A program made the translations under genes and the position numbers. A model generated the notes under the pieces. The model did no database searches, was not told where the DNA came from, and worked only from the letters and a program-made list of their open reading frames with translations. Source: Anaerolineae bacterium (GTDB taxonomy: Bacteria; Chloroflexota; Anaerolineae; Aggregatilineales; Phototrophicaceae). Taken from it: 33,583 bases of DNA. The stretch covers positions 1 to 33,583 of the forward strand of contig JAFLCH010000014.1 of the NCBI GenBank assembly GCA_017303775.1. The letters run 5' to 3'. Below are positions 1 through 6,597 of the stretch, piece by piece. Every line of letters begins with the position of its first letter. The first letter of the stretch is position 1.

Positions 1-95
1 ACACCCGGACCCATTCCGAACCCGGAAGTTAAGCTCACGAGCGCGGATGGTACTGCTTTGGTAACGAAGTGGGAGAGTACGCCGCTGCCAACCCC
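1..95 (+). rRNA. rrf: 5S ribosomal RNA, 3' part (5' end outside the window)
   Basis: The first 95 bases match the conserved core and 3' half of bacterial 5S rRNA: the loop containing CCGAACCCGGAAGTTAAGC, then a helix with the GGGAGAGTAC element, and the 3' strand GCCGCTGCCAACCCC of the terminal helix. The 5' strand that would pair with it (about 20-25 nt) lies to the left of the window, so the gene is cut by the window edge. The 3' end at about 95 is judged from the terminal helix strand. It is probably the last gene of an rRNA operon, which cannot be confirmed here. Confidence 0.93.
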
Positions 96-3332: not shown

Positions 3333-3362
3333 TTGCATCGCCGGGTTTATTTCTGCTATACT
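3333..3362 (+). promoter_or_regulatory. Promoter of the FMN riboswitch / riboflavin transporter operon
   Basis: TTGCAT (3333-3338) and TATACT (3357-3362) are separated by 18 bases, and the -10 box is extended by TG at 3354-3355. Transcription would start near 3369, about 15 bases ahead of the riboswitch. The position between the kinase stop codon and the riboswitch supports the call. Confidence 0.65.
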
Positions 3363-3383
3363 GTTCTTACAATCAAATAGGCA

Positions 3384-3576
3384 AACCTTCGGGGCAGGGT
3401 GAAATCCCCTACCGGCGGTAGGACACAATTGGTGTCAAGCCCGCGACCCGAGTCACCAACGCTTCTCGTGCGACTACATGATCGAATACCAGTGTTGGTG
3501 CATTACGACAACTGTCGTAACGGTGGATCTGGTTCAAGGCCAGAGCCGACAGTGAAAGTCTGGATGAAAGAAGGTG
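3384..3576 (+). promoter_or_regulatory. FMN riboswitch (RFN element)
   Basis: The conserved RFN blocks are all present in order: ACCTTCGGGGCAGGGTGAAA with CCCCTACCGGCGGTA (3385-3420), AGCCCGCGA (3438-3446), and GCCGACAGTGAAAGTCTGGA with GAAAGAAGGTG (3545-3576). The first and last blocks pair as the closing P1 helix (ACCTTC with GAAGGT). It binds FMN and normally shuts off downstream riboflavin genes when FMN is plentiful. At about 193 nt it is longer than a usual RFN: a GACAC/GTGTC arm follows the second block, and an extended variable arm (CACCAACGC pairing with GTGTTGGTG, plus a TACGACA/TGTCGTA hairpin) occupies 3455-3525. It lies upstream of the transporter genes. Confidence 0.95.
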
Positions 3577-3713
3577 TCTAACAGAGCATTGCATCGTTCG
3601 GTGCATCGCTTTGTTGGCTTTGCTTAGCGCAAATAATCACTCACGTATGCGATCAGAATTTGCTGACTCAGCTCTGTTTGCTTTAATTGGTGGTTCCCGC
3701 TAAGTAGATAATG

Positions 3714-3750
3714 AACCCCGCTGTGCTTGTCTGACAAGAGCGGGGTTTTT
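3714..3750 (+). terminator. Riboswitch expression-platform terminator overlapping the ribX ribosome-binding site
   Basis: AACCCCGCT (3714-3722) pairs with AGCGGGGTT (3739-3747), with an inner CTTGT/ACAAG helix, followed by five T at 3746-3750. This is a strong intrinsic terminator. The 3' arm contains GCGGGG (3740-3745), which is also the best ribosome-binding site for the ATG at 3753. The hairpin could thus stop transcription and also hide the start of ribX. Confidence 0.85.
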
Positions 3751-3752
3751 CT

Positions 3753-4589
3753 ATGCACGAGAATGCGCTTCTTAAATCGGTCGACCGGACAAAAATGAAC
3801 TTGATAACGGATCGTCGCCGTCTGTTGATGCATTTGAGGCGATTTGCTCCTTGGCTGATGCTCTTTGGCTTAGTCCTTGTGTGGCAGTTAATCTACATGC
3901 TCCGCGTCTATCCGCCTTTTATTATCCCCGCACCGGTTGATGTCTTAGTCAAATTTCGTGATGTTTTGCTTGACGGTCGCCTCTTTAATCACACCATAGC
4001 TACGTTAGTGAATGTTTTGGTCGGGCTGGTTGCTGGTCTGCTATTAGCCTTGACTTTGGGCTATGCCATCGCGAAAACGCCCATTCTTGAAGATATACTT
4101 TCACCCATAATTGTTGCCATTCAATCAGCTCCGGTGGTTGCCTACGCCCCTTTACTGGTGATTTGGTTCGGTAGCGGCCCTTCTAGCAAAATTGTCACCG
4201 GTGCCTTGATTGTCTTTTTCCCGATGCTTATGAATACCATCGTCGGTATTCGCAATGTACCTGCCTCACTCAAGGACTTAATGCGCTCAATGCAGGCGAC
4301 CCCTTGGCAAACATTTACCCGCTTGGAAATCCCTTCTGCCATGCCCATCCTGATGAGTGGCCTCAAGATTAGTGCTACGCTTGCGGTTATTGGGGCTGTC
4401 GTTGGCGAATTCATCTCTTCCAATGCTGGCTTAGGCTTTTTGATTAATCTTGCGCGTAGTCAGTACGACACGCCTTTGGTTTTGGTCGCGGTGCTCATGC
4501 TCACGCTGATCGCACGCTTACTCTATGGTGTTGTGTCGTTACTCGAACGGTCGCTTCTCAGTTGGCAGCGTCGTTCTCAGCGTAATTGA
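3753..4589 (+). CDS. ribX: Riboflavin ABC transporter permease RibX (ThiX/SsuC type)
   Basis: About 278 residues with roughly six hydrophobic segments starting at about residue 30 ('PWLMLFGLVLVWQLIYML'). The cytoplasmic EAA loop is visible as 'MQATPWQTFTRLEIPSAMP', the site that contacts the ATPase. Relatives are permeases for thiamine precursors, sulfonates and nitrate (ThiX, SsuC). The FMN riboswitch directly upstream identifies the cargo as riboflavin or a related flavin, as in the RibXY systems known from Chloroflexus. The start at 3753 lies just past the terminator, with GGGG seven bases before it; an ATG at 3795 is possible but less well supported. The binding protein and ATPase genes follow on the same strand. 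Confidence 0.85.
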   Translation: MHENALLKSVDRTKMNLITDRRRLLMHLRRFAPWLMLFGLVLVWQLIYMLRVYPPFIIPAPVDVLVKFRDVLLDGRLFNHTIATLVNVLVGLVAGLLLALTLGYAIAKTPILEDILSPIIVAIQSAPVVAYAPLLVIWFGSGPSSKIVTGALIVFFPMLMNTIVGIRNVPASLKDLMRSMQATPWQTFTRLEIPSAMPILMSGLKISATLAVIGAVVGEFISSNAGLGFLINLARSQYDTPLVLVAVLMLTLIARLLYGVVSLLERSLLSWQRRSQRN

Positions 4590-4616
4590 TGAATTCAACT
4601 ACGTTTTGTTTATAAA

Positions 4617-4666
4617 CTCATGTGAGGATCTAGAGCACATGAGATATTTCAACCAACAAGCTCTAG
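4617..4666 (+). promoter_or_regulatory. Two competing hairpins between ribX and ribY
   Basis: CTCATGTG (4617-4624) pairs perfectly with CACATGAG (4636-4643). CTAGAGC (4630-4636) pairs perfectly with GCTCTAG (4660-4666). Both cannot form fully at once because they share base 4636 and the second arm starts inside the first loop. The second hairpin ends four bases before the ribY ribosome-binding site AAGGAG (4671-4676). A role in setting the level of the binding protein, or in mRNA stability, is possible but not shown. Confidence 0.45.
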
Positions 4667-4681
4667 GATCAAGGAGATTGA

Positions 4682-5812
4682 ATGATGGTTCGTCGTATTG
4701 TATTAATATTACTGTTCGCGTGGGTAGGTGTTTTGGGGGTCAATGCTCGTCAGCCAGACCAGCAAACATTGTTCCTCACCTTTATACCCAATATTCAGTT
4801 TGCCCCGATCTACATGGCCGGGGAAAAAGGTTATTTTGCCGAAAATAACCTTACTGTGACCTTCGAATATGGAGATGAGAATGTCGGCGTTGATATGCTC
4901 GCCATCAATCAACGACAGTTTGGTATTATCAGTGGCGAAGAAGTAATCAAGTCGCGTGCGGCCGGTCGTCCGCTCGTCAGTGTTTTCGAATGGTTTCAGA
5001 AATATCCAGTTGGTATCGTCTACCCCGATAACAGCGGAATCGAATCCTTAGCGGATCTCAAAGGTCGGAAGGTCGGCATTCCGGGACGTTTTGGTGCTAG
5101 CTATAATGGCCTTATTGCAATTCTGGCTGCTAATGACCTTGTCGAGGCTGATATTCAACTTGAGCCGATTGGCTTCAATGCTGCTGATGTCTTTTGTGTC
5201 GGTGGCGTAGAAGCATCTGTGGTTTACGTCAGCAACGAACCCCTGCAAATCCAGCAGCGAGCAGATGCTGGGCAGTGCAATGGCATCAGCGGCGTGAGCG
5301 TTTTCCCTGTAGCCGATTCTGCGGATATGGTTTCCAATGGTCTTGTGACCAATGAAGAAACATTGAATAATAACCCTGATTTGGTTCAACGTATGGTCAA
5401 TGCCTACCATCTGGGGCTTCAGTCTGCCATCAACAATCCGGCTGAAACTTATCTTCTCAGTGCCAATCAGGTCGAAAATCTTCCGCTTGATGATGCTTTC
5501 CGCGCCGCTCTCGAAGCCGCCTCTGTAGCACAGGCTGAATTTTTGGCGACCAATCCGGATCGGGAAGCAGTCGCTGCCAGTCGGGATGCACTTTGGCAGC
5601 AGCTCACCCAACAGTTCGACTCCGCCACCTTACTTCAGTTCCGTGTTCTCTTGAATTCTATCGAACTCTGGGATGCGGATGTTCTCGGCTATGCCGATGA
5701 GTCATCATGGATAACCACTCAAGAAGTGCTCACAACCATGGGCTTTGTCACTACCCCCATTGATGTCACTGCCGCCTTCACCAACCAGTTCTTACCACAG
5801 TCTGAAGGGTAA
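4682..5812 (+). CDS. ribY: Riboflavin ABC transporter substrate-binding protein RibY (NMT1/THI5-like)
   Basis: About 376 residues. An N-terminal signal sequence (two Arg, then 'IVLILLFAWVGVLGVNA') is followed by the NMT1/THI5 fold: 'LFLTFIPNIQFAPIYMAGEKGYF', 'VTFEYGDENVGVDMLA', 'GIVYPDNSGIESLADLKGRKVGIPG'. THI5-like proteins bind pyrimidine or flavin-like compounds; together with the FMN riboswitch this points to RibY, which captures riboflavin outside the cell and delivers it to RibX. No lipobox cysteine is visible, so how it stays at the cell surface is unclear. AAGGAG lies five bases before the ATG at 4682; the next ATG at 4685 is equally possible. The ATPase gene starts five bases after its stop. 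Confidence 0.87.
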   Translation: MMVRRIVLILLFAWVGVLGVNARQPDQQTLFLTFIPNIQFAPIYMAGEKGYFAENNLTVTFEYGDENVGVDMLAINQRQFGIISGEEVIKSRAAGRPLVSVFEWFQKYPVGIVYPDNSGIESLADLKGRKVGIPGRFGASYNGLIAILAANDLVEADIQLEPIGFNAADVFCVGGVEASVVYVSNEPLQIQQRADAGQCNGISGVSVFPVADSADMVSNGLVTNEETLNNNPDLVQRMVNAYHLGLQSAINNPAETYLLSANQVENLPLDDAFRAALEAASVAQAEFLATNPDREAVAASRDALWQQLTQQFDSATLLQFRVLLNSIELWDADVLGYADESSWITTQEVLTTMGFVTTPIDVTAAFTNQFLPQSEG

Positions 5813-5817
5813 TACCG

Positions 5818-6597
5818 TTGACCGGTCATATCACAGGGCGGAATCTTGTTGCCAGCTATCCAGCGCCGGGGGGGGGGATCCTCCCGGCCTTGGGGCCGGT
5901 CTCTTTTGATGTCGCCCCCGGAGAATTTGTCTGTTTATTAGGGCCGAGTGGCTGTGGCAAGAGTACCCTTATCCGCATTCTCGGTGGTCTACAGCTCCCT
6001 TCGCAAGGGCAAGCCTTCTTAGATGGTAGCCTGATCACGCAGCCTTCTCCTCAAGTTGCGTTGATGTTTCAAGAATCCAATCTCATGCCGTGGCGCACGG
6101 TTCTGCAAAACATCGCTTTGCCTCTTGAACTCAAAGGAGTCGAGAAGGTCGAACGGATGGAAGCAGCGCGCCATCTTCTACCCGGTTTGGGATTGGGGGC
6201 GGAATTCGCGGATGCCTATCCGGGGGAATTATCAGGAGGTATGGCGCAGCGAGTTGCGTTAGGGCGTGTTCTGATTCAACGCCCTGAAGTTCTCTTACTA
6301 GATGAACCTTTTGGCGCGCTAGACGCGCTCACTCGCGAACAAATCACCCTCGACTTAATGCAGGTTTGGGCAGCCGAACAACAAACCGTCATCATGGTTA
6401 CCCACAATATTAATGAAGCTATTCTCCTAGCAGATCGTATTCTAGTCTTCAGCCAGCGTCCGGGGCGCATCATCGCGAATATCCCCGTCACGCTTCCCCG
6501 TCCTCGGCGCATCGACGACTCCTATAGCGATGCCTTCGGTCAGGTCGCGCAGCAAGTTCGTGCGGCTGTCCGGCAGGCTCATCCGGTGATGGGTTGA
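5818..6597 (+). CDS. ATPase of the riboflavin-type ABC transporter
   Basis: About 259 residues, with a Walker A 'GPSGCGKST' (42-50), Q-loop 'MFQESNLMPWR', signature 'LSGGMAQ' (138-144), Walker B 'VLLLDEP' (158-164) and the switch His in 'MVTHNINEA'. It belongs to the SsuB/TauB/ThiZ-like nucleotide-binding subunits that energise permeases such as RibX. The start is TTG at 5818 with GAAGGG eight bases before it, five bases after the ribY stop. Codons 17-20 contain a run of ten G (5868-5877), an unusual slippery tract so early in a gene. Its last 19 bases overlap the end of the opposite-strand kinase gene. Confidence 0.88.
   Translation: MTGHITGRNLVASYPAPGGGILPALGPVSFDVAPGEFVCLLGPSGCGKSTLIRILGGLQLPSQGQAFLDGSLITQPSPQVALMFQESNLMPWRTVLQNIALPLELKGVEKVERMEAARHLLPGLGLGAEFADAYPGELSGGMAQRVALGRVLIQRPEVLLLDEPFGALDALTREQITLDLMQVWAAEQQTVIMVTHNINEAILLADRILVFSQRPGRIIANIPVTLPRPRRIDDSYSDAFGQVAQQVRAAVRQAHPVMG
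5868..5877 (+). repeat. G10 homopolymer inside the transporter ATPase gene
   Basis: Ten consecutive G fall in codons 17-20 (Pro-Gly-Gly-Gly) of the ATPase gene. The frame downstream is intact in this sequence. A gain or loss of one G would stop translation early and silence the ATPase. It could be a sequencing problem spot or a mutable tract; the sequence alone cannot tell. Confidence 0.9.

Follow-up and report, generated by a model that had tools for sequence, protein, structure and literature searches.

Results

Features of the ribX locus

The window, by which we mean the whole stretch of DNA analysed (33,583 nucleotides, from an Anaerolineae-type Chloroflexota bacterium), carries a predicted FMN riboswitch directly followed by the genes of a putative transporter. 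The features are listed below; all are on the forward (+) strand and coordinates are those of the window.

3333..3362, +, promoter candidate: TTGCAT (3333-3338), 18 nt, TATACT (3357-3362), with TGC just before TATACT
3381..3579, +, FMN riboswitch aptamer (RFN element); cmscan match to RF00050, 98.5 bits, E 7.4e-22
3390..3394, +, CGGGG of the aptamer, end of the P1 5' strand and the following junction; proposed antiterminator/antisequestor strand
about 3446..3526 (approximate), +, enlarged variable arm of the aptamer, with a 66-nt stretch unshown in the Rfam alignment
3579..3616, +, hairpin directly after P1, contains ACAGAGC (3581-3587); -18.2 kcal/mol, probability at least 0.91
3714..3750, +, intrinsic terminator/Shine-Dalgarno sequestor hairpin with U tract (3746-3750)
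3716..3720, +, CCCCG, proposed swap strand; partners 3390-3394 or 3741-3745
3742..3745, +, GGGG, Shine-Dalgarno candidate inside the terminator 3' arm; identified from sequence and kept in relatives
3753..4589, +, ribX-like ABC transporter permease gene; PF00528 (BPD_transp_1), 3.5e-29
4682..5812, +, ribY-like substrate-binding protein gene (NMT1/THI5-like); PF09084, 3.1e-39
5818..6597, +, ABC transporter ATPase gene, probable RibXY partner; PF00005, 1.1e-30

The aptamer match covers the full RF00050 model (1-138) at a score well above the gathering score of 66.2, which places it in the family, and no other FMN riboswitch was found in the assembly (4.5 Mb, about 76% complete). Together with the permease gene at ATG 3753 this bears out an earlier sequence-only reading of the DNA, which had predicted an FMN riboswitch before ribX. 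The enlarged variable arm noted in that reading is also real, since the match spans 199 nt against the 138 positions of the model, though such a length is normal for the lineage: aptamer lengths run from 186 to 202 nt within the genus and from 118 to 217 nt when all loci are counted. The same reading placed the expression platform some 140 bases after the aptamer, farther than usual. The distance is nearly right, as the terminator starts about 134 nt 3' of the aptamer, but it is ordinary for the lineage. Both the aptamer and the 173-nt gap from aptamer to start codon lie at the long end of the lineage range and are not exceptional.

The promoter candidate was absent from the output of a simple consensus scan. 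Leaders of the same genus have TATACT at a similar distance 5' of the aptamer, most with a TTGCAA/TTGCAT/TTGAAA-like box upstream. The contig opens with the 3' portion of a 5S rRNA gene (window 1-93, 64.3 bits).

Genes with PF00528 and PF09084 lie directly 3' of the FMN riboswitch, which is the gene content of RibXY, and the operon (3753-6597) is predicted to encode a riboflavin ABC transporter of this kind. Most related genomes keep a ribX-like gene downstream of the RFN element. Genome G020 has a second FMN riboswitch (L050), with no ribX homologue in the downstream stretch that was fetched.

The frame of ATG 3753 has a stop codon upstream with no other start codon between, and many ribX homologues of relatives align with the window protein from residue 1. 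An N-terminal MxxxxLxKxL-like motif is common to most genus members, and an ATG directly follows the hairpin in 16/16 genus leaders. An internal start at ATG 3795, the alternative raised in the sequence-only reading, would lie downstream of an N-terminus that is conserved in most genus relatives. Given the conserved N-terminal motif and an in-frame stop without an alternative start, ATG 3795 is unlikely to be the main start.

A conserved hairpin overlaps the Shine-Dalgarno candidate

The hairpin before ribX has a stem (3714-3722/3739-3747) extended by an inner stem (3726-3730/3734-3738), runs into TTTTT (3746-3750) and folds at -19.9 kcal/mol. A GC-rich stem with a U tract behind it is the intrinsic terminator expected of a dual attenuator. 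The other mark of such an attenuator, a Shine-Dalgarno sequence in the terminator 3' arm, is present as GGGG within GCGGGG (3740-3745), 7 nt upstream of an ATG that is itself backed by relatives. GGGG is a modest Shine-Dalgarno. The terminator 3' arm thus doubles as the ribX Shine-Dalgarno arm, as had been read from the sequence, and folding and comparative evidence agree with the further suggestion that one hairpin could block both transcription and translation.

Comparison of related ribX leaders, which the sequence-only reading had put forward as a check, supports this layout. Screening of 101 related genomes found the FMN aptamer in 78; those close relatives that bear a name are metagenome-assembled genomes of Anaerolineae/Chloroflexi. 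Seventy leaders with a ribX homologue were compared, the window included (genus 16, family 31, order 23). Every genus leader (16/16) has a Shine-Dalgarno-like stretch paired within the 3' arm of the hairpin, as do 28/31 leaders of the family and 20/23 of the order (64/70 in total), counts that lean toward the hairpin layout because the relatives' start codons were chosen partly by it; many genus starts are fixed independently by the residue-1 alignment. In the genus alignment 90% of the terminator stem cells are paired, compared with 45-55% in slid controls, and five pairs have changes on both sides. The RNAalifold consensus of the genus platform recovered only the terminator; what is conserved between aptamer and terminator is therefore the presence of a hairpin and not the sequence.

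Leaders that combine the Shine-Dalgarno arm with a run of at least four U number 14 in the genus, 19 in the family and 9 in the order. These 42 of 70 leaders, and the strong hairpin with five-U tract in the window, would fit a transcription terminator and nothing else, the Shine-Dalgarno overlap being a by-product of a short leader. Against this, the Shine-Dalgarno arm is kept without a good U tract at 2 genus, 9 family and 11 order loci, so that sequestration seems to be conserved no less than termination, and we consider a pure terminator unlikely. The wider retention of sequestration than of the U tract in family and order could be taken in the opposite sense, namely that the hairpin acts mainly on translation with little intrinsic termination in vivo. 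That is quite unlikely, given that 14/16 genus leaders keep the U run directly after the stem and that stem and U tract in the window have the standard form of an intrinsic terminator.

The chance background for a hairpin abutting an ATG was counted by sequence patterns over the assembly. The pattern CCCCGN{4,34}CGGGGTTTTN{0,6}ATG has two matches in 4.5 Mb, one of which is the ribX leader, and the reversed CCCCG...CGGGGTTTT...ATG pattern has zero matches in the assembly, which marks the arrangement as more than a chance occurrence. The second match of CCCCG...CGGGGTTTT...ATG (locus L145, G000:C65:1174-1217, minus strand) is likewise a hairpin and U tract abutting an ATG. It directly follows a promoter-like TTGACG/TAAACT and precedes a short gene that encodes a TPP_enzyme_N domain. 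L145 has no Rfam match, and the TPP-enzyme-like gene downstream is unrelated to ribX.

A different platform on the same aptamer was seen in another family of the class. The FMN riboswitch L152 (genome G269) has a separate terminator lying clear of the start, and the P1 3' strand looks complementary to part of this terminator.

A proposed competition of the aptamer and the Shine-Dalgarno arm for one strand

The C-rich 5' arm of the terminator is complementary to the aptamer's CGGGG, and the two pairings of CCCCG would exclude each other. Folding was modelled with ViennaRNA, which ignores aptamer tertiary structure and FMN. For transcripts ending at 3722-3740, the 3390-3394/3716-3720 helix (the antiterminator) is predicted with a probability of 0.76-0.88, and P1 drops from 0.98 to below 0.1. 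When P1 is enforced in silico as a stand-in for bound FMN, CCCCG 3716-3720 stays free. Once the modelled transcript passes 3746 the terminator is complete at probability 1.0, and at equilibrium the full leader is predicted to form the terminator whatever P1 does.

Comparative evidence for the aptamer-terminator pairing can be summarised as (i) 90% of the antiterminator cells in the genus alignment are paired, against 36-54% in slid controls; (ii) in 7/16 genus sequences the aptamer GGGG has A in place of its first G, and each of these has U as the facing terminator base; (iii) the covariation score of the antiterminator was equalled in 0/500 shuffles; (iv) across 58 loci an aptamer A stands opposite U in 8/8, and an aptamer G opposite C or U in 49/50; (v) the bases before the CCC[C/U]G core pair in register with the aptamer, the first at 45/58 loci and the next at 37/58, complementarity reaching 12-13 bp in some relatives. 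In 6/7 genus sequences with the aptamer A, the corresponding pair of the terminator in the alignment is U-G, which argues that the aptamer pairing, and not the terminator alone, is under selection. The ribX tree shows just about 4 occurrences of the G/A change, yielding 2-3 usable independent pairs, and the test on these is not significant. A class-wide search for A-bearing aptamers added two distant loci, L152 and one without a clear counterpart. At the comparable stage of transcription the predicted antiterminator probability exceeds 0.5 in 13/16 genus and 20/24 family leaders; it is low in 3/16 genus members (L033, L038, L042).

Most genus aptamers with CAGGG for CGGGG (L036-L038, L040, L042, L044) also carry ATCGG for ACCGG further in; L045 does not. 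The two changes may co-occur by common descent or be linked within the aptamer.

The antiterminator of the window is 5 bp, shorter than in most relatives, and has ACCCCG where TGCCCCG is common. This substitution, with a full-length equilibrium that is entirely terminator, could indicate a decayed switch whose antiterminator is too weak, the hairpin mostly formed and ribX low and barely regulated. Such decay appears very unlikely: the antiterminator is still predicted at the probabilities above while the terminator 3' arm is incomplete, no damage is visible in aptamer, promoter, hairpin or genes, and ACCCCG also occurs in two other genus members.

The sequence-only reading had suggested another switching helix, between ACAGAGC and GCTCTGT. 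The complementarity is real and perfect (8 bp with a flanking A-U pair) and GCTCTGT was correctly placed at 3671-3677, but ACAGAGC lies one base earlier than had been given, at 3581-3587. A switching role can practically be set aside, as the helix has probability 0.0 against at least 0.91 for the local hairpin directly after P1 (a position that holds a hairpin in 16/16 genus leaders) at every transcript length tested, pairs in 48% of genus alignment cells against 36-52% when slid, a chance level in a poorly aligned region, and touches neither P1 nor the terminator, so that it would not alone switch the hairpin.

Discussion

We propose, with a probability of about 0.75, that the ribX leader is a dual-acting OFF riboswitch that works by strand swap, one C-rich strand having two mutually exclusive partners. 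The analysis establishes the aptamer and the hairpin overlapping the Shine-Dalgarno candidate, together with their conservation and the matched substitutions. At low FMN, nascent CCCCG (3716-3720) would be captured by the aptamer CGGGG (3390-3394). Capture would open P1 and delay the terminator, allowing polymerase to pass and ribX to be made. At high FMN, P1 and the ligand pocket would hold CGGGG 3390-3394 and, with the aptamer strand occupied, CCCCG would pair instead with the CGGGG of the Shine-Dalgarno arm. The resulting hairpin would stop transcription at the U tract, and in transcripts that read through the same hairpin would hide the ribX Shine-Dalgarno. That FMN binds, that it switches the genes off, that transcripts end here in vivo and that the steps follow in this kinetic order is our inference. 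Since the full leader at equilibrium is all terminator and the window helix has 5 bp, switching must be kinetic.

The U tract has been gained or lost on the ribX tree in at least 14 changes by a coarse criterion. We tentatively suggest, at somewhat less than even odds, that the FMN platforms of this Chloroflexota order form an evolutionary series on one strand swap, with the U tract repeatedly gained and lost. If so, U-tract turnover would turn translational control into dual control and back, leaving the switch unaltered. The relatives, which differ in the presence of a U tract and in antiterminator length (5 to 13 bp), provide a natural set that could serve to study the evolution of dual platforms and the effect of antiterminator strength on the response.

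Published work already places FMN riboswitches in front of the ribXY genes of Chloroflexi (PMC3766115; PMC4418817), and RibXY of C. aurantiacus is reported to complement an E. coli riboflavin auxotroph (PMC4418817). These systems share the aptamer family, the kind of transporter operon and the phylum with the ribX leader. Those passages contain no description of the platform, whereas the present work traces hairpin, overlap and swap over some 70 relatives. The adjacent ATPase gene is a feature of the window cluster, unlike the ribXY systems in the same passages (PMC3766115; PMC4418817). Our literature search found little on FMN platforms in the phylum Chloroflexota.

Dual transcription and translation attenuation is an established class of riboswitch platforms (Barrick and Breaker 2007, PMC2258182). 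The layout of the ribX leader is that of the class, without difference; the one detail added to it is a proposed competition, conserved in relatives, in which the 5' strand of the aptamer itself takes part. Dual control by an FMN aptamer is also known from E. coli ribB, reported to act on transcription and translation (Pedrolli et al. 2015, as cited in PMC11218506 and PMC9885008). The two leaders have the same aptamer-to-platform complementarity: ribB carries TCAGGGC in its aptamer and the complement, GCCCTGA, 43 nt upstream of its start codon. They differ in that ribB is a biosynthetic gene whereas the ribX leader precedes a transporter operon, and in that ribB termination is described as Rho-dependent (PMC11218506) whereas the ribX leader has the layout of an intrinsic terminator immediately before the start codon.

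The platform class, the dual control of ribB and the Chloroflexi ribXY riboswitches are all published, and the ribX leader is therefore not a new mechanism. It belongs to a described riboswitch class, of which it is a new and well-conserved member: a clean example of a hairpin able to be terminator and Shine-Dalgarno lock at once.
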